From positions 1-49,074 of the forward strand of contig NZ_KB899681.1 of assembly GCF_000378385.1 (NCBI RefSeq): 49,074 bases of DNA, given 5' to 3'. This document shows, in pieces, positions 8,101 to 40,644 of this stretch. The notes beneath the pieces were generated by a model. It did no database searches. It was not told the DNA's origin and saw only the letters and a program-made list of their open reading frames with translations. This DNA is from Paenibacillus daejeonensis DSM 15491. GTDB taxonomy: Bacteria; Bacillota; Bacilli; Paenibacillales; Paenibacillaceae. Each line of letters begins with the position of its first letter. Within the stretch, counting starts at the first letter, position 1. The translations under genes were made by a program, and so were the position numbers.

Positions 8101-10845
8101 CTAAATCACTTTCATCGAATGATTCCAGTCGCTCGCGGTGCCCTCTTGGTAGAGGCGGTCGCTCTCGAAGAAGTACAGCTTGGCCGCCAGATCATAGCGA
8201 TTGCGTCGCACCACCTCCACGAAGCCTTCACGGGCATCGTAGAACTTGCCGGTGCGGAACCATTGAATGGATTTCTCGAATGCTGCTTTTGACTCATGCT
8301 TCAAACGCTTGAGTGCTTCGGGGTCTCCCTCGTACAGGTCATACAGCTCTACAGTCTCTGAGCGGCCGATCATCTCCAGCGCTCCCAGCTTGCGGTAAGC
8401 ACCAATTGCCTCGTGTCGGATCGAGCTCAGCGCCTCCTGGGTGATGACAATATTGCAGCCCAGCTTCTCCGCCGTCTTCTCCAGCTCCAGGGCCATCGCA
8501 ACATGACTGGACACGACGCTGCTTTCGATCCGCTGTTCCTCACCGATGATGCCGAGCATAACATCGCCATAATGGAGCGAAATGTTAATTTCGATCGGTT
8601 CGTACCCGACACTTTGTCGCTGGGCATTATAGACCGCCAACGTTCGCCGGATTTGAATCGCTGCATGGACTGCCGCGCCCGCATCGCCCTGGAACATCGT
8701 CAGCATGCCTGGCCCCTGGTAACGGCTGATAAAGCCGCCGTGCTCACGAATAATCGGCCCGAACCGCTTCAGGAAGGAATTAATGAAGCCGAACGTTTCT
8801 TCTGTCGACAGCTTGGCAGAGAACGTATCAAACCCGCGCATGCTGCAGATCAGAATCGTCATTTTTTTATTCTGCTGCTCCCCCAGATGGATCTGGGTCA
8901 TATTGGTCTTGCCCAGCACCTTGAGGAACTGCTCCGGTACAAAACGGAAATACGAGTTACTCAGCTTGGTAACCTCGCCGAGATATTGATTAATGGAGCT
9001 GGCCATCATGTTGAAGCGTTCGCCCAATTCGCCTACCTCGTCACTGGTATTGATATCCACCCGCACATCCCATTCGCCGCTGGCAATCAGATTGACATTG
9101 CGGCGCAGCTTGCGGATCGAGGACAACAAGTAGATCGAAATGAGCGTTACCACGATTAGCAGAGCAATGCTTACGATAACGAAGATGGTCAGCACGTCGG
9201 AGAAGATGCTGCGGTTGTTCGCATAGACGAAGGCCATATCCTTGCCGGTTTCGTAAATACCGACGATTTCACCGGCCGTGTTATAGAGGGGTCCGAGCGC
9301 ATACATCCATTCCCCGTGTGCATCAGCCCAGGTGCCGACTACGGTCTCGCCTTGCTCTAACACACGCAGGTTATCTTCATTAAGTCCGAAGGGCTGGAAC
9401 ATCGTCAGGCTGTTGTCGTCGTCCATAATCAGGTACAGCCCGCCATCCATGTACCGGTAAATCGTATTGTATAACCCGTCCCTGTCTCCACCGGTCTGCG
9501 TGAACATCTCGCTCAGCCGTGTCTTGATTAGAGTATAATCCTCGCCGCCATAATCACGAGGCGAATTCAGGCGCTCCAGGTGCTCTTGCCCTACGAGGTA
9601 CTTGCCGTTGCTGGCGAGCAGCTGGAGCTGACGGAACGTATCCTCCTTCATCTCTCCGGAGAAGGACTGGTAGACCGAATAGAAAAGCGCCAGCATCGAT
9701 AGCAGCACCATCGGCACGAAAACGGCCAGCAGCTTCAGCAGCAGGGATACCTTGCGCCGGAGCACATGCACGTAACCAAATCGCAGCAGCCCGATACTGA
9801 CACCCGCCAGCGCCAGCAGCAGCGCCCAGTATACAATTCGCATGGCGATGGTGCTCCATGGGTATGCATAGCCACTCTGCGTTGCCAGAATCGTGCCATC
9901 GTCTGCAATCCGGAGCAATTGATCCGCCGCGACTACTGTCAGGCCGCTCTCTGTATAGGCGATGCTGGTGAATTCCTCCCACTCGGTCCCTCCGTCATGG
10001 GCCGCCAGCTGGTCAAGCGCAAGCCAGATCTGCGTGTCTCCCGAGGAAAGACTGGTCCGCATCACCGCCTGCTCATGATGATCAATATAATACGCGTTGT
10101 CCTGTCCATCACTCACGATGCTCACCGGGAAATTAAGAACCGGAGTGTCTGAGGCGGGATAAATCAGTCGCTCTCCCCCCGGCTCGCTGACCCGCAGCAG
10201 CCCGCGTTTCGTCGTATAGAGCAAACGATTTGCTCCCGCCCCTGTCATTTCATTGAGGTAACGGTCCTGACCGATGGAGACCGAGCGCTCCTCCGTTGGC
10301 TCCTGCACGCCTGCAGTGTCCAGATCAAACCCCAGCACTTGGGCAGTATTGGCTTCCTTTCGCAGGACATACAGCCTGTTCTCCCATAAGGTCAGCGACT
10401 GCAGACGCCCGACGCGGAACAGGTTGTCTTCCGCCGTATAAGCGGTGTCGTAGAGAATGGAGGAGGATTTACCGTCCGGTCTGATCCGAGCGATTCGCTC
10501 ACCTAGAACTCGTAGTCCATAGGAATCAAGATCGGTGACGAGCGCATAGACATTCCCGCTCTGATCGACCGTGATGCTCTCAAACAGCTGTATCGTATCC
10601 GGCAGAGCCAACTCGCTAACCGGATATTGAAAGGACAGCTTGTCCGACTCGTCAACCTTGCGGATGACCGTCTTCGAGTCTGCGATCGTATAATGCGAGC
10701 CTGAAGCATCGGTATAGACCTTCGATAGATTCGCATAGTTCTGGGTCGTCACAAAAGGGTTAAGCGAGCGATAATCCTTCAGGCCGACCAGCAGCGCTAC
10801 GACGACGGCTGTCGCCATCAGCAACAACAATAATTTGGATTTCAA
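8101..10845 (-). CDS. Four-TM HAMP receptor with a degenerate class III cyclase domain
   Basis: A 914-residue membrane receptor. The TTG at 10845 is preferred because AGGAG lies 7 bases upstream; a GTG at 10860 has no RBS. Domains run TM1 (about 3-22), an extracytoplasmic propeller-like sensor with repeated D-x-x-G-N-x-Y type strands (25-330), TM2 (333-356), TM3 (368-392), a second extracytoplasmic Cache-like domain (about 395-545), TM4 (547-575), HAMP (575-627), an adenylate/guanylate cyclase homology domain (660-830) and a helical tail. Both metal-binding aspartates appear replaced (Ser668 in LICSMRGF, Pro712 in QGPGML). The transition-state Asn and Arg positions hold Ala783 and Glu787. It is therefore probably a regulatory pseudo-cyclase. 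The alignment was done by eye. Confidence 0.85.
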   Translation of the reverse strand: MKSKLLLLLMATAVVVALLVGLKDYRSLNPFVTTQNYANLSKVYTDASGSHYTIADSKTVIRKVDESDKLSFQYPVSELALPDTIQLFESITVDQSGNVYALVTDLDSYGLRVLGERIARIRPDGKSSSILYDTAYTAEDNLFRVGRLQSLTLWENRLYVLRKEANTAQVLGFDLDTAGVQEPTEERSVSIGQDRYLNEMTGAGANRLLYTTKRGLLRVSEPGGERLIYPASDTPVLNFPVSIVSDGQDNAYYIDHHEQAVMRTSLSSGDTQIWLALDQLAAHDGGTEWEEFTSIAYTESGLTVVAADQLLRIADDGTILATQSGYAYPWSTIAMRIVYWALLLALAGVSIGLLRFGYVHVLRRKVSLLLKLLAVFVPMVLLSMLALFYSVYQSFSGEMKEDTFRQLQLLASNGKYLVGQEHLERLNSPRDYGGEDYTLIKTRLSEMFTQTGGDRDGLYNTIYRYMDGGLYLIMDDDNSLTMFQPFGLNEDNLRVLEQGETVVGTWADAHGEWMYALGPLYNTAGEIVGIYETGKDMAFVYANNRSIFSDVLTIFVIVSIALLIVVTLISIYLLSSIRKLRRNVNLIASGEWDVRVDINTSDEVGELGERFNMMASSINQYLGEVTKLSNSYFRFVPEQFLKVLGKTNMTQIHLGEQQNKKMTILICSMRGFDTFSAKLSTEETFGFINSFLKRFGPIIREHGGFISRYQGPGMLTMFQGDAGAAVHAAIQIRRTLAVYNAQRQSVGYEPIEINISLHYGDVMLGIIGEEQRIESSVVSSHVAMALELEKTAEKLGCNIVITQEALSSIRHEAIGAYRKLGALEMIGRSETVELYDLYEGDPEALKRLKHESKAAFEKSIQWFRTGKFYDAREGFVEVVRRNRYDLAAKLYFFESDRLYQEGTASDWNHSMKVI

Positions 10846-10953
10846 GGGAACTCTCCTCACCCGTTCAATGTGCTTTCTTCTATTCTACAACAAAGCTTAA
10901 TAGATGGGACCTTTTTCCTAAAATATATTTGTCTGATTTTGGCGATATATTTA

Positions 10954-27374: not shown

Positions 27375-30300
27375 CTACAATCCCCTTCGCTGCTGTTCAA
27401 ACCGCATACGGCGGGTGATCTCCCGGTACATCTGATCCGTCATGGCCTTGACGTCGACGGCTGGAGTAGCCGGCTTCGTTCGGAGCTCTTTCATTTCACC
27501 CTCCAGCCGACTGAGCGACTGGCGGACTACCCGGTCCTGCTCTGCTTGACCAGCGGCTGCGGCCCGGCTGCGCACGGCGAATTCGAGCGGCACGGCCCGA
27601 GCTGCTGCGCGCGGACGCCTTTCCGACGGGCGGCTGGAGGCTGAGGAAAGTTGCCGATCGGCAGTCTCCTCTTTGTAGAGCAGTGCCGGCAGCTGCCGCG
27701 CCGCACGAGCCGTAACCGATTCCGCGATTCGCGCCGCGCGAACGGTATGTCCGGTAAGCGGCGGCGTGGCGACCTGGAGCGGAACAAGGCCGGATTGAGA
27801 GCGGACAAGCATCTGCTCCGTCTGGTTTCGCGCCGAGCTCACTGCTCCTGTAAGTGGCGGCGCGATGGCCGAACGGAAGTTGTGCGACCTGGAGACGGGC
27901 TGCGCTGTCGTACGCCTTGCGGTCACACCAGTGCCAGACCCCTGTTGCAGGGACATGGCTGGACTACGGCGCATGGCCTGCAAGGCGGGCCGTGGCGACT
28001 GCGGTTGGCGTACAATCTCCGCCCCCCTACGCTGCTGCTCGGAAGGTGCTGCTGCAGACACATGCTCTTGCCCCGTTCTCCCACCAGCTCTGGATTCCAC
28101 GCGCTGGGACAGCACCGGACTGCGGCGCATGGCCTGCAGAGCGGGTCGCGACGGAGTTGTAGTCGCAGGCAGATGCCCCCGAGTACTCAGCGCCCCTGTG
28201 CCTGTATTCTGACGTTGGGAGAGAGCCGGACTGCGCCGCACCGCCTGTAAGACAGGCCGTGCCGGTCGCGGCTGGCGCACAGCCTCTGCCTCCACTCGCT
28301 GCTGCGAAGGCGTAACGGCAGTGGACGTCTGCACCTGCGCGACCTTGCTCTCCCGAGCCATGATCGATCCGGCAGCGGTATTCTCTGCCGCCGCAGTCAT
28401 CGGTCCAGGGGTTCGACTATGAACAGTGGTCGGAACCCCAGCGCTTCGCGCGGTCACATGAGCGACTGGCCGCGTGGCTGATTCGGGCTGACCCGGAGTG
28501 CGACTGGAGGGTATCGCCTGACTCGTCAGCCTCGTATTGGTGATTGTTCGTGGTGCCTGCCACCGAGCTAGCCGGGCTGCGACCAGAGCCAGTGCTCCAG
28601 AGAGGCGGCGACCGCCAAACGGCGTGCCCGGCGCATTGCCTGCCCGGGAGACAACGGATGCCGCTTGCACCGTCGACCGGGATGCTGACACTTGATTGCC
28701 GTCCACAGTGGCTCCTCCAACCGATGGGCCCGGCTTGGCGCTCTCATGTTGGACCGCCCGGGCTGAGGTCCCGCGACCGACAGCCCCTGACTGTATGCCC
28801 GTATGGCTCGTAACCGTGCGACCGGATAGCCGTTCCATTGCCGAGCCTCCCTTAGCACCGTTGCGGGCACCCTGCATGGAGGCCTGTTTGTGGATGAGTC
28901 GCTCAGCAAGCGAGAAATTCAGCAGCAAGGGATCGCCTAGCCAGGCCGATCCGATAGATTCAACTGAGCGATCCGCCACGCGATGGAACGGCAGGGCGGC
29001 CGATGCCTGACCGATTGAACTGCCTGCCGATCTTGGGGACAAATTCGCAGGAGCTAAAGTTCTAGCGGTAGCCATCACTACAGCTCTCGCTTGCGGTTCT
29101 GGAGCCTGACCGGTAGTCAGGCCGCCGGAACGCCCCAACCCTGGCCCCTGCTGCTGACTTCCGGTTGCCGAAGACCTGCTGTTTCCACCATTTCCAGCAC
29201 TCCCAACCGCAGATTGGGCACCAAATGTTCGTGATTCACGCTGCGGGGAACTGGAGGCTGCCCCGTTGACCCTATTTCCAGACCTTGCTGGCTGTGGCGG
29301 ACCGGGAGCAACAGTCCGCCGATGCGTGACGCGCAGAGCGCCGCGAGCCGCAATGTAAGCAGCCGTCGACTTGGAGCCGGGCAGCGGATTCGGTATCGTG
29401 CGGCCAGCTTTTGTCTGCTCTCGCCGCTCCTGCGCGTGAAGAGCTGCCTTCTCGGACGAAACCTGCAAGCGTTGCAGCAATCCTCTGCCGCCTGTCAGTT
29501 GCTTGGCATGCTCTTGTATAGCAGGAGCAGCTGCAAAGCCCTGCAAACGCGGAGCCGGGACCGAACCTGCCACTGTACGCAGGAGCCAATTCCGGATGCG
29601 CCCACTGCTGCTGACCAGCATGCTTCTGTCGCTAATTCCCTGACCTGGCTTAAGTTCTGCCTGCTGGACAGCGCGTTCTGTCCGCCGCTCATCAGGCTTC
29701 ACAGGTCCCTGCCTGAGTCGTGCCTCGTCAGCAATCGAAGGGGTCGATGAGGCCATACCCGGTTGCTGCCCGCTTCCATGCACGACTGGACCCGAAGCGC
29801 CACCATGTTTTGGGGAAGGATGCGTCTCGGACGTGCCCTTCCCAGGCTGTGCAACGCCATTCTGGCGCTCAGGCTTCGTCGTCGAGGCAGTAGGCGATTC
29901 GTTGCTCGCACGCGTAGTCTGCTTGCTTCGTGACCGCATGAATCCAGGCTGCTGCTGATCCGAGCGGGCCGCTGCGCCTCCTCTTTCCCTTGTGGAATAA
30001 ATGAGCGTGGCGGCCTGTCTTCTGCCGCGTCCTGTCTCTCGGGAGCGAGCGGCTGTTGTGGGTTTTTCAGTCTGCAGACTGCCTATGGGACGGCTCCGGG
30101 AGGGCAGGGCAATGATGCGTACCATGTCGGACAACCGGCTCGCTAACAGTCTGGACCTGACGGAATCAGCTAGTTGTGAGTAACCACCAGCTGGTGCTGA
30201 CCATCTTCCCGCGCTGCGGAGGCTGGTAACGAACGCCAAATCCCTCTCGTTCTGACGAGGTGCCGTTGCCTGCTGCCGCAAACGCGAGGTCACCTCGTCA

Positions 30301-31568
30301 GGCGTCTCCACGATGTTCACCGTTCCGTCCAAGCGTGAGGACTGACGCACTGTGCCTTGTGAGGCCAGGCTCTCGCCTGGCCGGTACGGCTCCGTGCCAG
30401 TTCCCGTGCTGCGCCGTACAGTCGCCGAGGCTCCACCGGTGGCAGCTGGAAGCAGCTGTCGCCCGGGAAGCAGGCGAACCGCTGCCGTTGGGCGGGCCGT
30501 GGGAGCTGGCAATACCACCTCTTTCAATCGCGCAGGTTGCGGCGAACCAGACACTCTGCGCGCAGTTAGACCAGGTGCGGCAGCGGTATCAGCTGCCTCC
30601 TGTCGTGCACGGCGACCGCGCGGCCAGGCAGCCATCCGCAGATCGCGATGAACAAATACCGCCTGCCGCGAAGATGCAGTCCCCGGCCTGCGGACAGCCT
30701 GATCCCTGTGGATCGTTCCTGAAGCTGGCAGCCGGTCTCGCAGCTGGCGCTGAGCCGTATCCGCCGCCTGCGTCTTGCTGTCCGTCTGTCGGGTGAAGAT
30801 GGAGCTGCGTCCCGGCTCCCGACCAGACCCATGATTACCAGAGGGGAAGCTCCCGCTCCTTTCAGAAGGAATCGGCCGACGCACATATTGCACCAGCGTC
30901 TGAAGACGTGTCAACCGCTCATAGCTCACTCGAATGGTACGTTCTGTCGTGCGCAACAGCCGTTCTTGCCTGCTAATCATACGTTGCTCAACCAGCGGCT
31001 TTGGTTCAGCGATGAATGTCCGAGATGCTTCTGTCCCGCTCTCTCGAATAGTGCCCGTAGCCTGTCGATCTGCAGCAGATGAAGTTGATGGACGTTGATG
31101 CATTGGCGCATGTTGGTTCGCTATCGGACGTGTAGTCCGGCGAAGCGCCTCCAGCCGGGCTGTCTCCGTTGTAAGCGTGCGGACCGCTTGCCGCAGCTCT
31201 GCTGCCTCTAGCTGGGCACGTTTTCTAACTTGAGCGACCGCTGCCGTATCTGCCTGAGCAGTCAAGGGCGCGGCATTGGCCCGTACAGTCACTTGCTTCG
31301 CAGATTGCGATTCCCGCGATCTAGGAGCTTCCAGTTGGAAGGTTTGCAGCAGCTTGAGATAGTAGTTGGCATAATTGGTTTGCAGACGAATATGCAAGTC
31401 CCGGGTGCCCCGCCCATTCGCAGCCCGCGTGGAAGGAGTCAGGTAGACAAAGCCCGCTCCGCGAACCGAGCGGTTGACCAGCCAGCCGTATTTGCCTGTC
31501 AGGCGACTCGCGAATTGCGGGTCGATCAAGGCTATATTATTGATAGGCTGAGGCTGCTTTTTCTTCAT
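27375..31568 (-). CDS. Very large basic low-complexity eCIS protein (tape-measure position)
   Basis: A 1397-residue protein between tube 2 and the LysM baseplate gene. The first 100 residues look ordered (RLTGKYGWLVNRSVRGAGFV, ANYYLKLLQTFQLEAP), followed by a helical stretch (QLEAAELRQAVRTLTTETAR). Over 1000 residues rich in Arg, Ser, Ala, Thr, Gln, Gly and Pro follow, likely disordered, with internal repeats of RPALQAMRRSP near the C-terminus (DNA at about 27957-28000, 28108-28147 and 28219-28259). The end is ordered again: VKAMTDQMYREITRRMRF then EQQRRGL, a C-terminal motif seen in eCIS proteins at this position. Its size and position suggest a tape measure or tube-lumen protein; this is inference. 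GGGGGGAAG precedes the ATG. Confidence 0.8.
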   Translation of the reverse strand: MKKKQPQPINNIALIDPQFASRLTGKYGWLVNRSVRGAGFVYLTPSTRAANGRGTRDLHIRLQTNYANYYLKLLQTFQLEAPRSRESQSAKQVTVRANAAPLTAQADTAAVAQVRKRAQLEAAELRQAVRTLTTETARLEALRRTTRPIANQHAPMHQRPSTSSAADRQATGTIRESGTEASRTFIAEPKPLVEQRMISRQERLLRTTERTIRVSYERLTRLQTLVQYVRRPIPSERSGSFPSGNHGSGREPGRSSIFTRQTDSKTQAADTAQRQLRDRLPASGTIHRDQAVRRPGTASSRQAVFVHRDLRMAAWPRGRRARQEAADTAAAPGLTARRVSGSPQPARLKEVVLPAPTARPTAAVRLLPGRQLLPAATGGASATVRRSTGTGTEPYRPGESLASQGTVRQSSRLDGTVNIVETPDEVTSRLRQQATAPRQNERDLAFVTSLRSAGRWSAPAGGYSQLADSVRSRLLASRLSDMVRIIALPSRSRPIGSLQTEKPTTAARSRETGRGRRQAATLIYSTRERGGAAARSDQQQPGFMRSRSKQTTRASNESPTASTTKPERQNGVAQPGKGTSETHPSPKHGGASGPVVHGSGQQPGMASSTPSIADEARLRQGPVKPDERRTERAVQQAELKPGQGISDRSMLVSSSGRIRNWLLRTVAGSVPAPRLQGFAAAPAIQEHAKQLTGGRGLLQRLQVSSEKAALHAQERREQTKAGRTIPNPLPGSKSTAAYIAARGALRVTHRRTVAPGPPQPARSGNRVNGAASSSPQRESRTFGAQSAVGSAGNGGNSRSSATGSQQQGPGLGRSGGLTTGQAPEPQARAVVMATARTLAPANLSPRSAGSSIGQASAALPFHRVADRSVESIGSAWLGDPLLLNFSLAERLIHKQASMQGARNGAKGGSAMERLSGRTVTSHTGIQSGAVGRGTSARAVQHESAKPGPSVGGATVDGNQVSASRSTVQAASVVSRAGNAPGTPFGGRRLSGALALVAARLARWQAPRTITNTRLTSQAIPSSRTPGQPESATRPVAHVTARSAGVPTTVHSRTPGPMTAAAENTAAGSIMARESKVAQVQTSTAVTPSQQRVEAEAVRQPRPARPVLQAVRRSPALSQRQNTGTGALSTRGHLPATTTPSRPALQAMRRSPVLSQRVESRAGGRTGQEHVSAAAPSEQQRRGAEIVRQPQSPRPALQAMRRSPAMSLQQGSGTGVTARRTTAQPVSRSHNFRSAIAPPLTGAVSSARNQTEQMLVRSQSGLVPLQVATPPLTGHTVRAARIAESVTARAARQLPALLYKEETADRQLSSASSRPSERRPRAAARAVPLEFAVRSRAAAAGQAEQDRVVRQSLSRLEGEMKELRTKPATPAVDVKAMTDQMYREITRRMRFEQQRRGL

Positions 31569-31585
31569 CTGACTTCCCCCCTTTC

Positions 31586-32029
31586 TTACAATACCTTGAA
31601 GCCGTTATGTGTTAGTTCAATAGCTTCTAGTGCGACCTCGCTGCTGGAGGCGTTGAAGTCTGGGCCCGACCATTTGGTGGGATAGGCTTCATAGAAATTC
31701 CAACGGCGAAACTCCTGCTCCAGCTCGTCATATAAAATGATGGATCCGCTCTTGCGGACAATCTTGCCCTGTAGGACCTGGCTGTACCAGTTCCATAACT
31801 CGTTGGTCAGTGTCATGCCTCTTCGCAGAACTAGCGGGGTCAGACGCGTTCGCCCCGGCAGCCGGTGTACATACTGATTGAGCCCGCCTTCGGCATGCTC
31901 GTAAACCTCAGTTTCCACGGACAGTCCGCTAACCTCAGAGAACCCCGCGACCAGCATGCCGTCCAGTTCAACCATGAATCGATAGGCGCCCACGACATGG
32001 GAACGTTGTTGGGAATTACGGCTCGACAT
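31586..32029 (-). CDS. eCIS tube protein 2 (Afp5/gp19-like)
   Basis: A 147-residue tube-fold protein. It shares the family patterns of the main tube protein at 33175: RFMVELDGMLVAGFSEVSGL near the start, then an LPGR/TPLVLRRGMT segment and YPTKWSGPDFNASSSEVALE near the end. It is more divergent and has the extra motif VETEVYEHAEGG. By analogy with Afp5 it probably forms the first tube ring on the hub. GGAGGAAG precedes the ATG. It starts 52 bases after the DUF6760-like segment. Confidence 0.93.
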   Translation of the reverse strand: MSSRNSQQRSHVVGAYRFMVELDGMLVAGFSEVSGLSVETEVYEHAEGGLNQYVHRLPGRTRLTPLVLRRGMTLTNELWNWYSQVLQGKIVRKSGSIILYDELEQEFRRWNFYEAYPTKWSGPDFNASSSEVALEAIELTHNGFKVL

Positions 32030-32080
32030 GTTGCTTCCTCCGCCCGGCGTCTGTTCGCCGACTTCTTGTACTCTTACATT

Positions 32081-32284
32081 TTAAAAATCGAATGGATTTT
32101 TGCGGTCCGGCTCATCGTTCATCTTGCGATTGATGCGCGAAATTTCCTCACACCAGCGCCGCCGCTCCTTGTGCTCCATATTCATAATCTCGTCATGCGG
32201 CCAATGGAAATAGTACGCGATAAATCCGGTTTCCTCGTAGAGCCGTTCTTCCGGATAGAGCGTTACATTTCCCCCGCCGGTTGC
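32081..32284 (-). CDS. DUF6760-like segment, -1 frame extension of the assembly-chaperone gene
   Basis: This frame encodes ATGGGNVTLYPEERLYEE and then TGFIAYYFHWPHDEIM, NMEHKERRRWCEEISRIN and a KNPFDF end, a close fit to the small DUF6760 proteins of eCIS loci. After the in-frame TGA at about 32314-32316 the frame contains no ATG, GTG, TTG or CTG before the conserved region. It is in the -1 frame relative to the gene upstream and overlaps its end by 22 bases. The likeliest expression route is a -1 frameshift at 32284-32290, giving a 186-residue fusion. The family assignment is from memory of the pattern. Confidence 0.75.
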   Translation of the reverse strand, partial: ATGGGNVTLYPEERLYEETGFIAYYFHWPHDEIMNMEHKERRRWCEEISRINRKMNDEPDRKNPFDF

Positions 32285-32640
32285 AAAAAAGACACATCCA
32301 CCTCATGCTCATGATCACACTTGGGACAGATCGCCTTGACGCTGAGCTGCTCGGTCTCGTTGATCTCGCGGTAGAAATTCTGAAGGAAGGCCAGATCGGC
32401 CGTAAATAGCTTTTCGATGGTTTTGGTATCGACAGCGCGCAAGTCACCCAGCTTGGTAATGACCCGGGCCAGCAAAATAATGGTCAGGTAGCCGGGGTTC
32501 TGCTGAACGCGTGGATCACGCATGGGCAAGATCTCATCGGCAGCTGTCGCCAGCCGCATGATGCCGCGCCGGTGCAGGTTGCCGCTCTCATCCACATAGC
32601 CGCGGGGCAGCTCAAATTCATATTCGGTTCTAAAAGACAT
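32263..32640 (-). CDS. Tail-assembly-chaperone-like eCIS protein
   Basis: A 125-residue protein with a GAGGAG ribosome-binding site. It begins MSFRTEYEFELPRGYVDESG and contains LHRRGIMRLATAADEILPMR, RDPRVQQNPGYLTIILLARV and LFTADLAFLQNFYREINE. A C-terminal CPKCDHEHEVDV segment could bind zinc. This family lies between tube genes in many eCIS and resembles phage tail assembly chaperones of the Mu gp41 type. As in phages, the following ORF is in the -1 frame. It may chaperone the long 1397-residue protein during tube assembly. Confidence 0.85.
   Translation of the reverse strand: MSFRTEYEFELPRGYVDESGNLHRRGIMRLATAADEILPMRDPRVQQNPGYLTIILLARVITKLGDLRAVDTKTIEKLFTADLAFLQNFYREINETEQLSVKAICPKCDHEHEVDVSFLQPAGEM
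32284..32290 (-). promoter_or_regulatory. Predicted -1 ribosomal frameshift site (T TTT TTG)
   Basis: Read on the minus strand in the frame of the chaperone-like gene, TCT TTT TTG contains the canonical X XXY YYZ heptamer with X and Y both T and Z = G. Slippage by -1 enters the DUF6760-like frame, which otherwise lacks a start codon. A possible stimulatory stem, CCG GAAGAA CGG, lies about 40 bases downstream. Confidence 0.65.
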
Positions 32641-32691
32641 AAGACACTCTCCTCAAGCATTCATTTTGTATCCAGCCAAGCTATTATGAAA

Positions 32692-32840
32692 AAAGTGGCC
32701 TACGGTCATGGATCGATCTTACGATCGCTGTTGTCCCCAGATTTCTTGAATTTTTAACCGCTGTAGCGGTTGAAATCCGGGGACAAAGGCGAGCGCTACG
32801 CTTCTCCAGATTCGATTCCATGCCTCTTCGGCCATTTTTC
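32692..32840. repeat. Structured dispersed repeat element (copy 2, short)
   Basis: An imperfect long palindrome bounded by AAAAAGTGGCC and GGCCATTTTT. Its centre pairs TTGTCCCC with GGGGACAA, GATTTC with GAAATC and AACCGCT with AGCGGTT. It matches 20163-20392 over most of its length. It occupies the operon gap between tube 1 and the assembly-chaperone gene and would form a large hairpin in the mRNA. Confidence 0.85.
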
Positions 32841-32854
32841 TAACGAGCACATCT

Positions 32855-32972
32855 GAGACTGTCAAAAACTAAAAGTTTTTCTGTTTAACGTCCACAACAC
32901 GAGGGTAATGGAGTGAATAACAGACTTCTCGCACCCGGCATCCGAGGTAAAAATAAAGTCACCGACAGTCTC
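32855..32972. repeat. Inverted-repeat element GAGACTGTC...GACAGTCTC
   Basis: Nine-base perfect inverted ends (32855-32863 and 32964-32972) flank about 100 bases, with an internal AT-rich hairpin (AAAAACT/AGTTTTT at 32864-32880). It resembles a small non-coding mobile or structural element. No gene is visible in 32841-33174. Confidence 0.6.
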
Positions 32973-33082
32973 ACATCTGCGCGTTAGGCAGTCTGGAACG
33001 TTGCAGGAACAAACAGTTTGGGCGGTTAAACGTCTGTGGTAGGTGTTAACCGCAACAAACGACGTCGTTTTGCTACATGCAG

Positions 33083-33166
33083 CCGCGCTTGCGACAGCGC
33101 GGCCAGCAGTTGCATCAAACCTTCGGTTCATCCGTGGATGATACGAGTGGCAGCTCGATCATCCAC
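33083..33166 (-). promoter_or_regulatory. Tandem hairpins just downstream of the tube 1 gene
   Basis: GTGGATGAT (33134-33142) pairs with ATCATCCAC (33158-33166) and nearby CGAG with CTCG, directly after the tube stop codon at 33175. A second stem, CCGCGC/GCGCGG, lies at 33083-33102. Neither has a U-run. They could protect the sheath-tube mRNA 3' end or attenuate downstream transcription. Confidence 0.5.
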
Positions 33167-33174
33167 ATCATTGA

Positions 33175-33612
33175 TTATTGTGTACGAAGCATACCTTCAT
33201 GCGCGAGCTCCAGCAGCTCGATTGCTACCTCGGAAGCCGTTGCGTTGAAGTCAGGCGCCGTGTACTTGGTAGGCCAAGCTTCGATGACCTGCCAGGTTGC
33301 GACGTCCTCGCCTTCTTCATTAATACCGATGATCGTTACCGTTTTACGCTCAATGGTACCCTCAACGATACACTCCTGGACCCACTCGAACAGGTCCAGT
33401 GAATCGGTAGCGCCCCATTTCAGAGAAATGTTGCCGTACTTCGCCAATCCAGGCAGTTTGCGCGGCGTAATCACGTCCGTGCCCTCCCGGTATTCAATCA
33501 CATCCAGCGAGGCGTCGAAGCCGGAGACTTCGCTGAAGCCTGCCTGCTCGATGCCCTCTACTTCGACCCTAAACCTAAACTTGCGATATGGATCATTGCG
33601 TTCGCCCGCCAT
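33175..33612 (-). CDS. eCIS tube protein 1 (Afp1/gp19-like)
   Basis: The 145-residue main inner-tube subunit (Hcp/gp19 fold). Family signatures are PYRKFRFRVEVEG, GIEQAGFSEVSGFD and the KLPGLAKYGNISLKWG strand pair, followed by WVQECIVEGTIERKTVTI and a C-terminal EAWPTKYTAPDFNATASE. Hexameric rings of this protein form the tube driven through the target. The gene follows the sheath gene by 75 bases containing a doubled GGTAGTTCAAAAA motif. GAAAGGAAG precedes the ATG. Confidence 0.95.
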   Translation of the reverse strand: MAGERNDPYRKFRFRVEVEGIEQAGFSEVSGFDASLDVIEYREGTDVITPRKLPGLAKYGNISLKWGATDSLDLFEWVQECIVEGTIERKTVTIIGINEEGEDVATWQVIEAWPTKYTAPDFNATASEVAIELLELAHEGMLRTQ

Positions 33613-33687
33613 ATTCTAACTTCCTTTCACCTGTAAGGTAGTTCAAAAAAGGTAGTTCAAAAAGTAAGCCTTTAATTACACACCTAA

Positions 33688-35376
33688 CTATTGCTCATTC
33701 GTTTTCTGCGTAATGCGGAAGACCACGAACTCTGCCGGTTTGACCGGTGCGATGCCGATGATGCAGACCAGACGGCCGTTGTCGATATCATCCTGGGTCA
33801 TGGTGCTGCGGCTGATGTCGATATAGAACGCCTCCGACGGAGATGATCCCATCAACGCTCCACCACGCCATACACGGGTGAGGAAGGCATCAATCGTACG
33901 ATGCACGCGTGCCCACAACCGCTCGTCGTTCGGTTCGAAGACGACCCAGTTGGTGCCCGACTTGATCGATTCCTCCACGAAGATGAACAGGCGGCGAATA
34001 TTAATGTATTTCCAGAGGGCATTCGAGGATGTCGTGCGCGCTCCCCAGATGCGGATGCCTTGTCCCGAGAAGCTGCGGATCAGGTTGACGCCTTTGGGAT
34101 TCAGCACGTCCTGCTCGCCTCTGTTGTATTGCACGTCCAATCCGGTCACGCCACGGATGACTTCGTTTGCCGGAGCCTTCTCGACGCCGCGCGTACTGTC
34201 ACTGCGGGCATAGACGCCAGCAACCGATCCGGATGGCGGAACGAAGATGTTGCGTTTCTCGAGCGGATCAAATACCTGCAGCCAAGGGTTGTACAAGGCC
34301 GCATAGCTCGAGTCGAACAGCTCGCGGTGGGTGAGCACATCCTGGATTTTGGTCTTCTCGCGCGGGATGTCCAGCACGGCGAAGCGGCTGCCTAGTCCCT
34401 CACAATGTGCAACCAGCGAGAGCTGTACCGAAGGATCGGTCACGCCCGGTACGGCCATGATGCTCACTTGATCGTTGTCTACAAAGGCCTGGATGCCTGT
34501 CCGTTTGCCAGGGCCGTTGTCCTCGCCCATGTATGAGGAAGCATCAAGTCCGCTCAGACTGCCGTCGGAACCACCAGCAAGCACGATGATGTATGGCGCC
34601 GCGTCCTTCTTGAACAGCTTGGTCAGCTTGGCCTTGCTGTCAGCCGTTACCGAGATCAGTTCCGACTTGGTTAGTACGGTGTCGACATAGTTGGCTGCAC
34701 CTGCATTGAAGGAGCAGGATTCAAACGTCTCCGACTCGGAGCCGTAAGCGACGTTGACGGTGAATTCAGCTGTGCTCAGCACCTTGACTGGCAGCAGTCC
34801 CACATCAACCGGGTCCTCTGGGAGTGCGTCATCCAATTCGAGGATGTCGTCCAGCACCTGCACCACATTAGCTGAGGTTACCGCTTCTCCGTTGGAGAAA
34901 TTGACAACGTCGCCGACGTTGAAGCCCGAGCTGTTCTTGACGCGGTACTTGTTGCCGCCCAGGTCTTCGAACACCTGTGTTTTGGCTTTGCTCGCAGATT
35001 CGATAATCACTTTGATCTGATTGCCCCAGGCTCCCGGATTGCGGGCCTCGATAGCGAACAGGGGATCATCGCTGACGGCGACAGCTGCATCGGCAGGCAC
35101 AACCCGCATGATGTAGGCGCTGGAACCTCCGTTTACAAAATACTGCTCTACCGCATACGCAAGATACCGGTAGGTTCCGAACTGCTTATCGGACAAGTGG
35201 GAGCCAAACGTTTTTCTGAACTCGTTCATGTTGGTTACCAGCAGCGGCAATCCTTCGGACGGTCCGCGCTCGGCTACGCCGAGAAAGCCAGCGACACTTG
35301 TGCTGACGCCTGAGAGCGGCTGTCCGGCACTATCAAATTCCTCCACATAAACCCCTGGCGAAAAATATTCGGCCAT
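33688..35376 (-). CDS. eCIS contractile sheath protein
   Basis: The single sheath subunit of the system, 562 residues from the ATG at 35376. The N-terminus AEYFSPGVYVEEFDSAGQPL and the following VSTSVAGFLGVAERGP are typical of contractile sheaths. The C-terminal core includes YINIRRLFIFVEESIKSGTN, FEPNDERLWARVHRTIDAFL and WRGGALMGSSPSEAFYI. The middle 200 residues are an insertion domain. The ATG has no good ribosome-binding site. The only strong one (AAAGGAGG, 35440-35433) lies 56 bases upstream and is five bases from an in-frame ATT (35427), which would add 17 residues. Afp and PVC carry several sheath paralogues; here only one was found. Confidence 0.95.
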   Translation of the reverse strand: MAEYFSPGVYVEEFDSAGQPLSGVSTSVAGFLGVAERGPSEGLPLLVTNMNEFRKTFGSHLSDKQFGTYRYLAYAVEQYFVNGGSSAYIMRVVPADAAVAVSDDPLFAIEARNPGAWGNQIKVIIESASKAKTQVFEDLGGNKYRVKNSSGFNVGDVVNFSNGEAVTSANVVQVLDDILELDDALPEDPVDVGLLPVKVLSTAEFTVNVAYGSESETFESCSFNAGAANYVDTVLTKSELISVTADSKAKLTKLFKKDAAPYIIVLAGGSDGSLSGLDASSYMGEDNGPGKRTGIQAFVDNDQVSIMAVPGVTDPSVQLSLVAHCEGLGSRFAVLDIPREKTKIQDVLTHRELFDSSYAALYNPWLQVFDPLEKRNIFVPPSGSVAGVYARSDSTRGVEKAPANEVIRGVTGLDVQYNRGEQDVLNPKGVNLIRSFSGQGIRIWGARTTSSNALWKYINIRRLFIFVEESIKSGTNWVVFEPNDERLWARVHRTIDAFLTRVWRGGALMGSSPSEAFYIDISRSTMTQDDIDNGRLVCIIGIAPVKPAEFVVFRITQKTNEQ

Positions 35377-35424
35377 TGTTGTCGCCCGACTCACAGAATA
35401 CGCAAATGGGCCGCGTAGTTGTGA

Positions 35425-35440
35425 AATCGGTTCCTCCTTT
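35425..35440 (-). promoter_or_regulatory. Strong RBS facing an in-frame ATT codon upstream of the sheath gene
   Basis: AAAGGAGG is followed after AACCG by ATT, which is in frame with the sheath. The accepted ATG lies 56 bases further on, without an SD. Either ATT initiation occurs or the site serves mRNA stability. Confidence 0.5.
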
Positions 35441-35586
35441 CGTGACTTTAAAATATGCAAGATCGGGCCCTTAATGGTTGTTCAGAGCTCGGTGCCAAAC
35501 ACCAAGCGTCTTGAACGCTCACTTGATTCAAGCCGTCGATCAGTGCTACATGGTTGGTGCCTGCTCTTCATGCCTCCGCCACCAGC

Positions 35587-36156: not shown

Positions 36157-38325
36157 TCACCCCTTCCAATACTGCGCGTAGGGACCGAATCGGTCCTTCA
36201 TCAGCAGCTTGCCCGTCTTCTTGTATTCTTGAATGACGCTCTCCAACAGTCGTTGCATCGACAGCGGCTCCCCCGCCTCGGCAGACAGGAACGCGGCCGA
36301 GAGGACAATGTTCTTGATCGGTGCGCCTGTGAGCTCGAACGTCTCCGCGAGGAAAGCGTAATCGATCTCCCCGGCTGGCATCGCTTGCGGAATGGCCGAG
36401 CGCCACAGGCGCTCACGATGGTCGCTATCAGGAAAGGGAAAGCGGATAATATATTGAATTCTTCGTACAAACGCATCATCGAGGTTCTGAGAAAAGTTGG
36501 TTGCGAGAATAGTGATGCCATCGTATTCTTCCATCTTCTGAAGGAGGTAGGAGGTTTCCATGTTGGCGTATTTGTCGTGAGCATCCTTGACCTCAGAGCG
36601 CTTGCCGAACAGCGAGTCCGCCTCGTCGAAGAACAGGATGGCCCCGCTCTGTCCGGCCTGTTCGAAAATCTCGCTTAGGTTCTTCTCGGTCTCCCCGATA
36701 TACTTGCTCACCACGCGAGAGAGATCAATCCGGTACAGCTCGGCCCGGAGCTCCTTGGACATGACCAGCGCGGACATCGTCTTACCCGTTCCCGGCGGAC
36801 CGGTGAACAGCATGCTGATGCCCCTGCCGTAGGGCAGCAGGCGGTCAAATCCCCACTGACTGAGCACCGTGTGGCGGTGCACCAGGCGGTTACACGCCTG
36901 CCGGAGCAGCTGCATCGCATCCGCCGGCAGAATGAGATCATTCCAATCCAGCCGGGACTCCATCTTGACGGCCTTGTCACTCAGGCGATGCCGCAGCAAG
37001 CTATAGGCAGCCGTCTGGAGCCAGTCTCCTGCGCTGCCGCCTTCACCGCTGGCCTGCCGCCAATCCGACAGCTGCAGCGCATATTCGGTCGTGGCCTTGA
37101 TCTGTCCTGGCGTGAAGCGGAACTTGCCCGCCAGCAGCGCGATCTCCCGTTCGTCCACAGCGAGCAGCGACGGCGTCAGCTGCTCCCATAACCGTACACT
37201 ATCGAGCATATCCGGGAGGGCAAGCGGGATGTCCAGCCAGACCGATCCCGGCGGCCGCACCGGCGCTTTGAGCGCCGCATCACTCAGCCAGAACACATCC
37301 CCCGACCAATCGTTCAGCTCTTGGAGCAGCAGGTGGATCCGATTATCGGAGGCTGTACAACGGAATGCCGGAATGGCGTCTTGGAGCCGGGCTTCGAGAA
37401 GCATCTGCGCCAGTTCGTCGCGCAGCCTGTCCGGTTCCTGTGCAGCCTGTGCAAGATCCCACTCCAGCAGCGCGCAGCCGAGGTCGGCGCAGAGGTGTCT
37501 GGCCTGGAAGGTCTTACCGCTGCCGGAAGGGCCGTGCAGATTCCAGTGAACCGGATACTCCGCACGATCACGCGCATAATCGCGCATCCGCTGCCGCAAC
37601 TGATCCTGTATAAGGGGAGGCTCCAGTAAGCGATTGCTCTCCAGCCCATAGTGGGTCAGTCCAGTGAGGGTATCCTGTACCCGCCAAGGGAGATCCAGCA
37701 GGAAGCTGACTGCCCGGGGTCGCAGCACCAGCGGCTCTGACAGCATCGATACGTCCTTCCTCGTCTGCGCGGACGTCATCTCCGCGAATAGCCCCCGGAG
37801 CGCGCCGCGCGTCTGTGCCCAACGTTCCAGCAACCGCTTGCGCTCCCCAGGACTACGGCTGCTTAGTCGCAGCATCAGATCGAGTGTCAGATGCTGGCTG
37901 GACATATCATCCTGCAGATAGCCATACAGTCTTATGTACTTGCGATTGGCATGAGGTGCGAGCGCCGCAAGCAGCATTCGCGAATCCTGCTCTGTCAAGC
38001 CCAGGACTGCCTGCAGCCGCAGCAGCGGCACCTCGCGTTCAGAGGTCGATTCTAACCGCAGCCGAATCCGTTCCTCCAGTTGATCCAGCAGATATGTCTG
38101 TTCCGCTGTCAGCATCAGATAGGGTTCATCATCGTCCAGCAGCGCCTTGGCTTCCGTGTCCGACAGATACATGCCGCGGAAGGCGCCAGCTGATCCGTCC
38201 AGCTCCTCCGGATGTTGCATCATCCGCTGCATTTCAATCTCCAGAACCACATCCAGCCTGATCCATTCATCAAACAGATATTCCGACAAATTCGGATACG
38301 GAGAAGCCTCTTGCGTCTGTGTCAT
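36157..38325 (-). CDS. eCIS AAA+ ATPase (Afp15-like), two ATPase modules
   Basis: A 722-residue cytoplasmic ATPase. The ATG at 38325 has GGGGGAG upstream; an earlier ATG at 38361 has none. A first P-loop, [15 protein letters not shown], lies at about 264-278. Its Walker B region is unclear, so the module is probably weak or inactive. The second module (about 480-720) is complete: [14 protein letters not shown] (508-515 P-loop), [15 protein letters not shown] (Walker B, about 562-568), [14 protein letters not shown] (sensor 1) and paired arginines at 621-622. Homologues are required for eCIS assembly or cargo loading and are present in nearly all loci. An N-terminal helical region of about 240 residues precedes the ATPase. 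Confidence 0.94.
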
Positions 38326-38424
38326 TCCAAGCTCACTCCCCCGAATGCTACTTCTTTCCATTGTCGTTCTAAATACTCATAGGCGCAACAGTTCTTTCGA
38401 CCTATTCCAACAATTTTTGCGTCG

Positions 38425-39768
38425 TCAGCCATAATTTAACACCATGAGCGCTTGATCATCATGCTGCGGCATGCCAGCGGCAAACAACTCGATGGTTTCC
38501 GATAACCGAAACACGATCTCTTCCGCAGAACAACCGACCGAATGCGACAATTGTTCTGCCAGACGTTCGGCCCCGAACCAATGACCTGCCGAATCCTCGG
38601 CTTCTGTAATGCCATCCGTGTAGAGCACGAGCGACTCACCCGCCGAGAGCCTAATATGGTTATCGGCATAATCCGCGTCCGCGAATATACCGATCGGAAG
38701 ATTTTTGTGTCCTGTCAGAGCGTTTGCTCCCTGTTGACCAACGACATACGCCGGACAGTGGCCAGCATCGCAATATTGCAGCTCGCCACTCGCCGTATCC
38801 AGGATGCCGAGGAACATCGTCGCGAACATGGTCGACTCTTCGCTGCTGATCTCCCGATTGATGTGAGCGACGATTTGGGATGGTTTGAGAGAACCATTCG
38901 CCTTCGCCCGAATCCAGATCATGAGTCCTGACATGAACAGCGCCGCAGGCATGCCCTTATCTGAAACGTCGCCCAAACAGATAAGCAACCGCCCATCGCC
39001 AAGCTCCTGGTAATGATAGAAATCGCCCCCCACCTCACGGGCAGGCTCAAGGGAAGCGTTCAGCTCGACTCCCGGCATCCGCCAGGAAGAGCCGGGCAGA
39101 TAGCTGCTCTGGATCTCTCTGGCAATCTTGAGCTCGCTCTCCAGCCGCTCCTTGGCCGCCGTGGTTTCGCGCAGCTGGAGCATCGACTGCTCCAGCGCTT
39201 CGTAGAGCAGCATATTTTCCAGCGCAATCGCCACCGGAGCAGCGATGTCCTCCAACAGCCGCAGCTGAGCCTGGGAGAACGCACCGCCACCTTTGCGGTT
39301 GATGACCTGCAATACCCCCAGCGTCCGCTCGCCGGAGCGGACCGGCACACAGAGCATGCTGCGCGTAGGCATGCCTACGCGGTTCGAGACCCGGCTGGAC
39401 CAGCGGGCATCGCGTGCGGCATCAGCGATTCTAACGGATTGGCCGCTGGCCGCCACGCTCCCGGCGATCCCTTCCCCTGGCTGCAGCCGGATCTGCTTCA
39501 CCTCGCCGCCCCGCTCCCCGGTAGCAACCTCAAAATATAGTTCGCCCGTGCTTGCATCAACCATGATGATGGAAGAAGCTTCGGCATCCAGCGCCTCCTC
39601 CGCAGTCTCCATGATGATCTGGAGCAGCTCTCCGCGGCGAAGCGTGGAGTTTAACCGCAGGCTGATCGCCAGCAGCTGAGATGAGCGCCTGCGCTCTCTC
39701 GCCAGGAGCATGCCCGCCCCCGCAGCAGCCCCGGCCAGCGCCGTAGACAGCCATGCCTTTCTGCTCAT
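38425..39768 (-). CDS. GAF-SpoIIE/PP2C phosphatase with an N-terminal membrane helix
   Basis: A 447-residue serine phosphatase of the RsbU/RsbP/SpoIIE class, the activating arm of a partner-switching cascade. The ATG at 39768 follows GGGGAGG and lies one base after the STAS gene's stop, implying translational coupling. Residues about 6-24 form a hydrophobic helix, 35-185 a GAF domain, a coiled segment (ETTAAKERLESELKIAREIQ) links them, and 225-445 is the PP2C fold. Metal-binding signatures are visible as REVGGDFYHY, CLGDVSDKGMPAAL, LYTDGITEAED and HDDQALMVL. It probably dephosphorylates the STAS protein encoded just upstream. Confidence 0.94.
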   Translation of the reverse strand: MSRKAWLSTALAGAAAGAGMLLARERRRSSQLLAISLRLNSTLRRGELLQIIMETAEEALDAEASSIIMVDASTGELYFEVATGERGGEVKQIRLQPGEGIAGSVAASGQSVRIADAARDARWSSRVSNRVGMPTRSMLCVPVRSGERTLGVLQVINRKGGGAFSQAQLRLLEDIAAPVAIALENMLLYEALEQSMLQLRETTAAKERLESELKIAREIQSSYLPGSSWRMPGVELNASLEPAREVGGDFYHYQELGDGRLLICLGDVSDKGMPAALFMSGLMIWIRAKANGSLKPSQIVAHINREISSEESTMFATMFLGILDTASGELQYCDAGHCPAYVVGQQGANALTGHKNLPIGIFADADYADNHIRLSAGESLVLYTDGITEAEDSAGHWFGAERLAEQLSHSVGCSAEEIVFRLSETIELFAAGMPQHDDQALMVLNYG

Positions 39769-39769
39769 C

Positions 39770-40120
39770 TTAGCCCTCCCCTTGTGCAGAGACATGGGCT
39801 AGTGCCGCCTCCAGCGTATCAAACAGCGGGAAGATCTGGGCGAAACCGGAGATATCCAGCACCTCACGCACTGTATCTCGCAGCAGGCAGAAACCAACGC
39901 TTCCGCCATCCGCCCGGCTTTTCTTGACGGTGAGCAGCATGACGCGCAGACCTGCACTGCTCACGTACTCCAGCTCGTCCAGCCGGAAAACGATGCGGCG
40001 GCAGCCTTCGTCCCACAAGCGCAAGAACGCCTGCTCCGTCTGTGCCATCGAGGCGCTGTCGAGCCGCCCCCTCCAGGTGACAACTGTCACCTCCTCTATC
40101 TGCTGCACTGTCATTTCCAT
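39770..40120 (-). CDS. STAS-domain anti-anti-sigma-type protein
   Basis: A 116-residue STAS protein of the SpoIIAA/RsbV class. The core helix-strand motif ELEYVSSAGLRVML holds the phosphorylatable serine (Ser54 or Ser55). In known systems the unphosphorylated form binds the HATPase kinase and frees its other partner. The gene lies between the kinase and phosphatase genes, a complete partner-switching set. AGGAGG lies eight bases before the ATG. Confidence 0.93.
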   Translation of the reverse strand: MEMTVQQIEEVTVVTWRGRLDSASMAQTEQAFLRLWDEGCRRIVFRLDELEYVSSAGLRVMLLTVKKSRADGGSVGFCLLRDTVREVLDISGFAQIFPLFDTLEAALAHVSAQGEG

Positions 40121-40170
40121 GCCCTATACCTCCTCTCGATCCTGCTGCTCTATCCGCCTGGTTACAGCCA

Positions 40171-40644
40171 TTATTCCGCCCTACAGCTTTTCACCATGCG
40201 CAGCACATTTCGCTCTTCCTTGCGTTCGTATACCACTTGATTCATCGACTGCTTCATCAACCAGATTCCCAGACCACCAAGCGCTCTCTGCTCGAGCGGC
40301 AGCGTCAGATCAGGATCAGGATGCTGCAGTGGGTCAAAAGACTGCGCCTCATCTGTAATGGTCACAATCAGCCTGCGAACCCCGCTGCCCTGATCCAAGT
40401 TTTCCAACGTATCCGGCTCTGGCTGCTTGTGTTCTGTAAGCTCCAGCGTAATCTGGACTGACCCGGCTGCACCCTCCCCATATCCATGTCTAATAATATT
40501 GACGATCCATTCCTCACAGGCCAGCAGGATGCGACCTGTATCCTCTTCCGGGATGCCCTGGCTTAAGCAAAACGCCCGGATACGCTCCCCCAGCCGCTCC
40601 CACTCCGCCAGCGAAGCCGTGATGCACAGTTCGATTCGATTCAC
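40171..40644 (-). CDS. HATPase anti-sigma-type serine kinase (RsbW/SpoIIAB-like)
   Basis: A 157-residue GHKL ATPase. The N box ACEEWIVNIIRHGYG (about 49-63), the ITDEAQSFDP (G1-like) segment and GGLGIWLMKQSMN (G2) are recognisable. Such proteins phosphorylate a STAS partner and sequester a sigma factor or another target. No sigma factor gene is in the window, so the target may lie elsewhere or may not be a sigma factor. The start is GTG (40644) behind AAAGGAG. Confidence 0.92.
   Translation of the reverse strand: MNRIELCITASLAEWERLGERIRAFCLSQGIPEEDTGRILLACEEWIVNIIRHGYGEGAAGSVQITLELTEHKQPEPDTLENLDQGSGVRRLIVTITDEAQSFDPLQHPDPDLTLPLEQRALGGLGIWLMKQSMNQVVYERKEERNVLRMVKSCRAE

Follow-up and report, generated by a model that had tools for sequence, protein, structure and literature searches.

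The locus considered here raises the question of how a conserved coding segment that has no start codon of its own comes to be translated. The segment, DUF6760, lies between two tube genes in the window, by which we mean the whole stretch of DNA that was analysed (49,074 nt, an entire contig). Judging from sequence, we put at roughly 0.88 the probability that programmed -1 frameshifting at the junction of DUF6760 with the preceding gene, here called gene A, makes a chaperone pair for the injection tube that resembles the lambda G/GT pair.

A reading frame without a start codon in an injection system operon

The features on which the argument depends are these:

32263..32640, minus strand: gene A, zero frame, 125 aa, tail-assembly-chaperone-like, with a C-terminal CxxC (ORF and PHROG 508)
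32081..32302, minus strand: DUF6760 reading frame, -1 relative to gene A, 73 codons plus stop (translation)
32284..32290, minus strand: slippery heptamer T_TTT_TTG, in phase with gene A (zero-frame codons TCT TTT TTG)
32269..32275, minus strand: second in-phase slippery-type heptamer, G_GGG_GAA, of the class found in other named phyla
32298..32304, minus strand: Shine-Dalgarno-like GAGGTGG, 7 nt 5' of the heptamer, a tentative candidate stimulator (sequence)
32087..32263, minus strand: DUF6760 domain (PF20546, E 1.8e-20), a relative of the P2 E'/GpE extension
32084..32640, minus strand: predicted frameshift product, 186 aa (from the two frames)
33175..33612, minus strand: tube protein 1, next gene upstream of gene A (PF06841, E 7.1e-45)
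31586..32029, minus strand: tube protein 2, next gene downstream (PF06841, E 4.1e-44)
33688..35460, minus strand: sheath protein (PF04984, PF17482)
27375..31568, minus strand: 1397-aa ORF, putative tape measure by position (no Pfam or NCBIfam match at the limits used)
36157-38361, minus strand: AAA ATPase of the operon (family match)

The open part of the DUF6760 frame spans 32302 to 32084, with the stop codon at 32083-32081. In the window, no ATG, GTG, TTG or CTG lies ahead of its YxFHW core, and the 60 nt ahead of the core contain no ATA, ATT or ATC either. The original prediction, that a DUF6760-like segment lacking a start codon sits in the -1 frame of the upstream gene behind a correctly phased T TTT TTG, agrees with the frame coordinates, with the PF20546 match and with the heptamer at 32290-32284. 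It also foresaw the 125-residue gene A product and a fusion of about 186 residues, which the two frames predict as 119 + 67 aa. Its 22-base overlap was inexact, as the open overlap spans 40 nt (32263-32302), with 21 nt left after the heptamer. It further overlooked G_GGG_GAA at 32275-32269, the lineage-specific heptamer classes and the stem-loop 3' of the G class that are described below. A slip on either heptamer of the window predicts the same 186-aa product.

Considered merely as a word, TTTTTTG occurs 8 times in the window against 4.68 expected, and 10 of 100 shuffled sequences reach 8. What exceeds chance is the phase, place and conservation of the heptamer, not the word itself. The window junction has no significant stem after the heptamer (z -0.41), and an Rfam scan of 31500-33700 returned no match.

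The surrounding genes identify the locus as an extracellular contractile injection system (eCIS). The operon runs in the order AAA ATPase, sheath, tube 1, gene A, DUF6760 frame, tube 2 and 1397-aa ORF, and other members include a CIS tube/LysM protein (tube cap), hub, spike, gp25, two baseplate J proteins and a Tail_P2_I protein, in a census confined to the 49,074-nt window. Capsid, portal and terminase families found no match among the 27 selected ORFs scanned there. The setting is shared by related loci. Sheath and tube matches are present in all 58 of the named-contig loci of at least 11.5 kb, and the nearest family match is a tube protein upstream in 59 of 61 loci and downstream in 52 of 61.

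Some further features of the region deserve mention. Between tube 1 and gene A lies a repeat of ~140-160 nt (about 32687-32840) with up to 43 other matches in the genome, the other copies being 80-97% identical; it is a dispersed element inside the eCIS operon. Beside it, 32840-32987 has 24-nt arms that are 88% complementary around 100 nt, as in a MITE-like element or second small insertion, so that much of the ~530-nt gap between tube 1 and gene A is repeat-like. Just upstream of the AAA ATPase, a GAF-SpoIIE phosphatase, a STAS protein and a HATPase_c_2 kinase stand in a row (38425-40644), and this trio looks like a partner-switching regulator of the eCIS. A protein with HAMP and adenylate/guanylate cyclase domains, encoded within 8101-10860, is not part of the eCIS as far as can be seen.

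Slip sites and start codons at homologous junctions

Because the TTTTTTG word is not above chance in the window, homologous junctions were collected. A sample of relatives (197 genomes, 45 with DUF6760) and a phylum sample (398 genomes, 13 with DUF6760) were joined by 14 of 35 matching plasmid records, by named genome contigs with at least 80 DUF6760 loci, and by phylum samples around Actinopolymorpha (19 of 296 with DUF6760), a cyanobacterium (19 of 194), an Anaerolineales MAG (10 of 151), Methanosarcina (10 of 196) and a Rhodospirillales MAG (6 of 349, three above the family cut-off). From 231 loci, including the window's own, 229 had a DUF6760 HMM match and 223 had both a gene A frame and DUF6760 at -1; clustering at 90% identity left 167, and 162 non-redundant junctions remained with gene A confirmed. 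Those dropped were L057 and L210 (no DUF6760 HMM match), L043, L106, L119, L138, L209 and L228 (no gene A frame by the script rule) and L161-L164 and L211, which failed a gene A HMM built from the same set. The junctions share descent, and the counts over 162 loci are not counts of independent events.

Inspection by eye of the loci removed by the script rule revealed that L043 and L138 retain G_GGG_GAA and end gene A further downstream, and that L119 is without an intact gene A. The remaining case is relevant to the objection that a sequencing error or pseudogene has broken a true in-frame fusion in the assembly. In L106 the G run is down to four and the frames are related differently, perhaps through such an assembly error. 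Nevertheless, the same -1 relation recurs in 223 of 229 loci with a DUF6760 match, drawn from many assemblies, and this conservation already refutes the objection, to which we give practically no weight.

Junctions were divided by heptamer into 97 G_GGG_GRN (G class), 43 T_TTT_TTN (T class), 7 A_AAT_TTT (A class), 7 with another canonical heptamer and 8 with none. An in-phase heptamer of the three main classes is thus kept at 147 of 162 junctions. Four equally wide stretches of gene A upstream of the junction, read in the same phase, gave 2, 6, 4 and 2 of 162. Within the junction window itself, 147 heptamers are in phase and 27 and 9 are in the other two phases, where it should be noted that long runs match two phases. 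Among 58 junctions of named phylum, Bacillota account for 18 T, 5 A, 4 G and 3 without a heptamer; all 28 from eight other phyla, one of them archaeal, are G class, and the T and A classes are confined to Bacillota. Six of the seven other canonical heptamers are archaeal (L054 from Haloferax and L198-L202 from the Methanosarcina phylum sample) and read GGGAAA followed by T or C, and the seventh, L207, reads GGGAAAG; their phase was checked by hand. The junction is conserved across phyla and in both bacteria and archaea.

The runs are short: the T run is 6 nt in 41 of 43 T-class junctions and 7 nt in the other 2, and the G run is 5 nt in 69 of 97 G-class junctions and 6-8 nt in the rest. Spacing in the G class is narrow, the heptamer starting 12 nt (77 junctions), 15 nt (19) or 24 nt (1) ahead of the domain core, which leaves 5 nt between heptamer end and core in 77 and 8 nt in 19. 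The gene A stop of this class lies at -5 (48), -2 (43), +10 (4), +19 (1) or +31 (1) relative to the core; in A-class loci it may sit at -17. The window junction is one of only two among the 43 T-class junctions that also have an in-phase G-class heptamer. This locus (L001) and the other (L217) might be class intermediates.

Start codons were sought from the slip site, or from 30 nt ahead of the core, to the DUF6760 domain core. ATG, GTG and TTG are all absent from 116 of 162 junctions, which extends to related loci the missing start first noticed in the window, and at least one is present in 46. By class, 38 of 43 T and 65 of 97 G junctions have none. The start-bearing members of the G class invite another explanation, namely translational coupling, in which re-initiation or a start inside the overlap gives a separate DUF6760 protein, GGGGGA serves as a Shine-Dalgarno sequence, and ATA, ATG or GTG is the start. 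An ATG or GTG indeed stands just past the slip site in 32 of 97 G-class junctions, mostly those in which gene A ends with TGA (30 of 37). Three Streptomyces plasmid records annotate DUF6760 from GTG and Haloferax from ATG, and Brevibacillus has GGAGG and ATG with no heptamer.

However, only 2 of the 60 G-class junctions that end gene A with TAA or TAG have an ATG, GTG or TTG, and the other 58 have none. The presence of a start follows the choice of stop codon, and TGA should prevail if a start were needed. The run itself is also unlike a ribosome binding site. GGGGG is present at all 97 slip sites (by class definition), as against GGAGG at 3 and other Shine-Dalgarno-like sequences at 2, while the sequence ahead of the gene A start in these loci, the start being picked by rule, has GGGGG in 2 of 96, GGAGG in 15 and other such sequences in 34. 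Moreover, a strong hairpin starts near the would-be start codon in the G class, and no start is available in the window at all. On the strength of the Shine-Dalgarno comparison and the TAA or TAG junctions without a start, GGGGGA as a Shine-Dalgarno sequence was set aside for most loci, though not all. We consider coupling an unlikely general account, and frameshifting is preferred. Streptomyces-type loci, with a G heptamer and a GTG, may use both frameshifting and a separate start, and 4 of the 6 archaeal G_GGA_AAY loci also have an ATG or GTG.

Homologues with a normal start codon and no slippery site, which the original prediction named as the finding that would speak against it, do exist. 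They are rare, with 4 of 162 junctions having an ATG and no heptamer. In Brevibacillus (L059/L060) the heptamer is gone and GGAGG and ATG are present, and L166, L167 and L206 combine an ATG with the absence of any listed heptamer. Loss of the frameshift signal in some lineages is probable, and these loci probably represent conversion to two genes. Other exceptions are of a different kind: in Paenibacillus L086, L087 and L089 the heptamer position reads TCT TTT ATC, a GGAGGAGG run is present, and ATG, GTG and TTG are all missing, and L156 and L187 have neither a heptamer nor any of these starts.

Once the class definitions had been settled, a further 22 IMG/VR loci were retrieved by means of the query alignment used before. 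Of these, 20 have an in-phase heptamer (10 G, 7 T, 3 other canonical) and 20 have no start; the contigs may be phages or mis-sorted eCIS, and this later set was not de-duplicated (L241/L242 and L255/L256 look like pairs).

A stem-loop downstream of the G-class slip site

A stimulatory RNA element is usual, but not obligatory, at programmed -1 frameshift sites. The G-class heptamer is followed directly by a hairpin. Its arms, in typical form GGCTACC ... GGTAGCC, encode G-Y-P and E-V-A. When synonymous codons were permuted within each locus and the sequences refolded, the native G-class junctions had a mean minimum free energy (MFE) of -20.7 against -13.8 for permuted sequences, with a mean z of -2.25; 61 of 97 reached p <= 0.05 and 67 of 97 reached z <= -1.64. 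For three control windows taken from these loci, mean z was -0.05, -0.26 and -0.26. The same permutation does not support a stem at T-class junctions (mean z -0.27; 5 of 43 at z <= -1.64). By Wilcoxon test, which treats related loci as independent, the G-class junction differs from the middle of the DUF6760 region (p 9e-16) and from the T class (p 6e-12). In the later set, 9 of 10 G junctions and 0 of 7 T junctions have a stem at z <= -1.64.

Covariation supports the helix. In 57 G-class sequences it scored 0.255, against 0.179 in shuffled alignments (0 of 500 as high) and 0.08-0.13 when the alignment was slid; 88.3% of cells pair, and 8 of 12 pairs have changed on both sides. These 57 were taken from 67 diverse sequences, and the ten left out were mainly those in a CGTACG register and very divergent ones, so the count favours the canonical register. 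In Treponema L055, for example, C-G and G-C replace the U-A and A-U of most loci, and the helix is preserved. RNAalifold on the same 57 sequences returned a different, weak structure (-3.1 kcal/mol) and not the named stem. When the G run is included, 51 of the 97 MFE folds contain the canonical stem and 22 adopt another register; the remaining 24 show neither, and in most of them the G run itself is paired, a pairing that a ribosome on the slip site would block. Folds without the G run place the first paired base 1-6 nt past the heptamer in 76 of 97. We conclude that the G-class stem-loop is under selection. The contrast between a class with a stem and a class without rests on few transitions, since a tree test of co-change between slip class and stem found 2 G/T changes and 1-2 independent pairs, and its power is low.

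An upstream Shine-Dalgarno-like duplex shifts modestly in energy under synonymous permutation (mean z -0.83 for T and -0.67 for G, with control windows at -0.03 to 0.18), and p <= 0.05 is reached by 1 of 43 T and 6 of 97 G junctions.

These data also bear on transcriptional slippage, whereby the polymerase product of a T or G run would be mRNAs of altered length that encode the fusion. Homopolymer runs are present at the site, but they are short (T mostly 6, G mostly 5), and transcriptional slippage usually needs longer ones. Furthermore, it needs neither codon phase, nor A_AAT_TTT or G_GGA_AAY heptamers, nor a stem-loop. We regard it as very improbable.

Probable chaperone identity, proposed mechanism and phage counterparts

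The gene A protein of the window matches PHROG 508, 'tail assembly chaperone' (E 3.6e-6), as do all 42 gene A homologues scanned, namely the window's and 41 from named-contig loci (best E 1.1e-9). The only named Pfam tail-assembly model that gene A touches is the Mu gp41-type chaperone (Gp41_Mu, PF23746), below the Pfam cut-off (E 0.01; 1 of 42 homologues at E <= 0.01), and NCBIfam gave nothing above cut-off. The AlphaFold model of gene A has a mean pLDDT of 85.8. A fold search against the PDB found no match at E <= 0.001, and the viral matches from Foldseek at this threshold numbered four: two of the proteins are uncharacterised, and the others are named as baseplate or T4-like hub-assembly proteins. 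With TM scores of 0.46-0.56 and rmsd above 12, these were set aside as proof of identity. To go by the title of one paper, T4-like chaperones are reportedly made without frameshifting.

DUF6760 is related to the E' extension of P2-like phages. Its match to Phage_P2_GpE is below cut-off (E 0.014), while hhalign against phage E' gives a probability of 80.5 (E 1.3e-5), and PHROG 1756, the family of PSP3 E', is matched at E 0.0014. A tblastn search of 50,697 phage records gave 18 weak matches (E 0.2-0.8) to Salmonella, Yersinia and Escherichia phages, and the matching region of PSP3 (Peduoviridae) is annotated as the probable -1 frameshift product E+E'. The P2 E/E+E' and PSP3 gp23/gp23.5 pairs resemble the eCIS pair in serving a contractile machine and in lying between a tube gene and a tape-measure gene, which in the eCIS is a putative one, and P2 E', like DUF6760, is an extension in another frame with an FHW motif. 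TTTTTTG occurs near the E/E' junction in 7 of 9 P2-like phages, its phase having been read in PSP3 only, where it is in phase; an eighth has GGGAAAG and one has neither. The parallel with phage tail assembly chaperones, originally drawn to lambda and Mu, gains from these shared heptamers and from the chaperone-like proteins. There are also differences from P2. The eCIS has no head-gene family match among the ORFs scanned, gene A has no profile match to P2 E (hhalign probability 0.1), and a second tube gene sits between the eCIS pair and the large ORF.

In lambda, the slippery heptamer is G_GGA_AAG. Most eCIS heptamers differ from it, and the eCIS G class has a conserved 3' stem-loop. PMC5009743 describes lambda G and GT as two products with a common N-terminus that arise by a -1 slip and adjoin the tape measure, and states that tail-chaperone frameshifting is widely conserved in long-tailed phages, is 2-3 times stronger in P2, and uses G_GGA_AAC in the haloarchaeal tailed virus HCTV-1. 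The Haloferax eCIS has this last heptamer in phase, although here it belongs to a host eCIS rather than a virus. Independent support for the G class comes from actinobacteriophages, for which PMC10885494 gives GGGGGAA as a reported backward-shift motif of the chaperones.

We propose that gene A and DUF6760 are expressed as a single recoded locus. Most of the ribosomes would halt at the gene A stop and release the 125-aa protein. On T_TTT_TTG, and perhaps on G_GGG_GAA too, a minority would shift back by one base, bypass this stop and synthesise the 186-aa A-DUF6760 fusion. If the analogy with lambda gpG/gpGT and P2 E/E+E' applies, both proteins would be assembly chaperones, the A part coating the tape-measure protein and the DUF6760 part recruiting tube subunits. 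The ratio of A to fusion may set orderly polymerisation of the tube, as inferred from lambda (PMC5009743). More broadly, we lean towards the view that eCIS, as a class of host machines in bacteria and archaea, need -1 frameshifting for assembly. The ancestral signal would be a G-run heptamer with a stem-loop a few nt 3', replaced by stem-free T_TTT_TTR in many Bacillota and by G_GGA_AAY in Haloferax and related archaeal loci, and DUF6760 would be the annotation-hidden 'T' half of a host-encoded G/GT pair.

The mechanism is of a known kind; what appears to be undescribed is its occurrence in eCIS, its spread over two domains and the stem-loop class. The 5.39 million open papers searched yielded no mention of DUF6760 and, as first supposed, no description of frameshifting in eCIS, and prior mention in subscription papers is possible; the available parts of PMC8718954, PMC9022992, PMC13222765, PMC13277306 and PMC11126660 contain no such description. 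If the proposal is correct, a family without a described function in many phyla gains both a function and an expression mechanism, and eCIS tubes may use the same control of chaperone stoichiometry as phage tails. Frameshifting would also explain irregular gene calls in public records, a failing of annotation pipelines that was suspected from the outset: DUF6760 is called from ATA in Nostoc, from ATT in Pseudanabaena and from a TTG inside the domain in Rhodococcus, and it is absent from a Brasilonema record (weak evidence, as the PLSDB gene table is incomplete). There is a practical aspect as well, in that recoding the overlap when an eCIS operon is cloned for heterologous expression would abolish the predicted fusion. 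The archaeal loci add candidate cellular -1 frameshifts to the few documented in archaea according to PMC8211752, and within a single gene family there is a natural series in which some slip sites have a stem-loop and others lack one.

Finally, seven of the IMG/VR loci (L251-L254 and L257-L259) encode a distant DUF6760-like domain with T_TTT_TTN 12-15 nt before the core, and in L252 also 9 nt before it, and their gene A stop lies at +1 or +4. They are perhaps true phages that carry a form between P2 E' and DUF6760.
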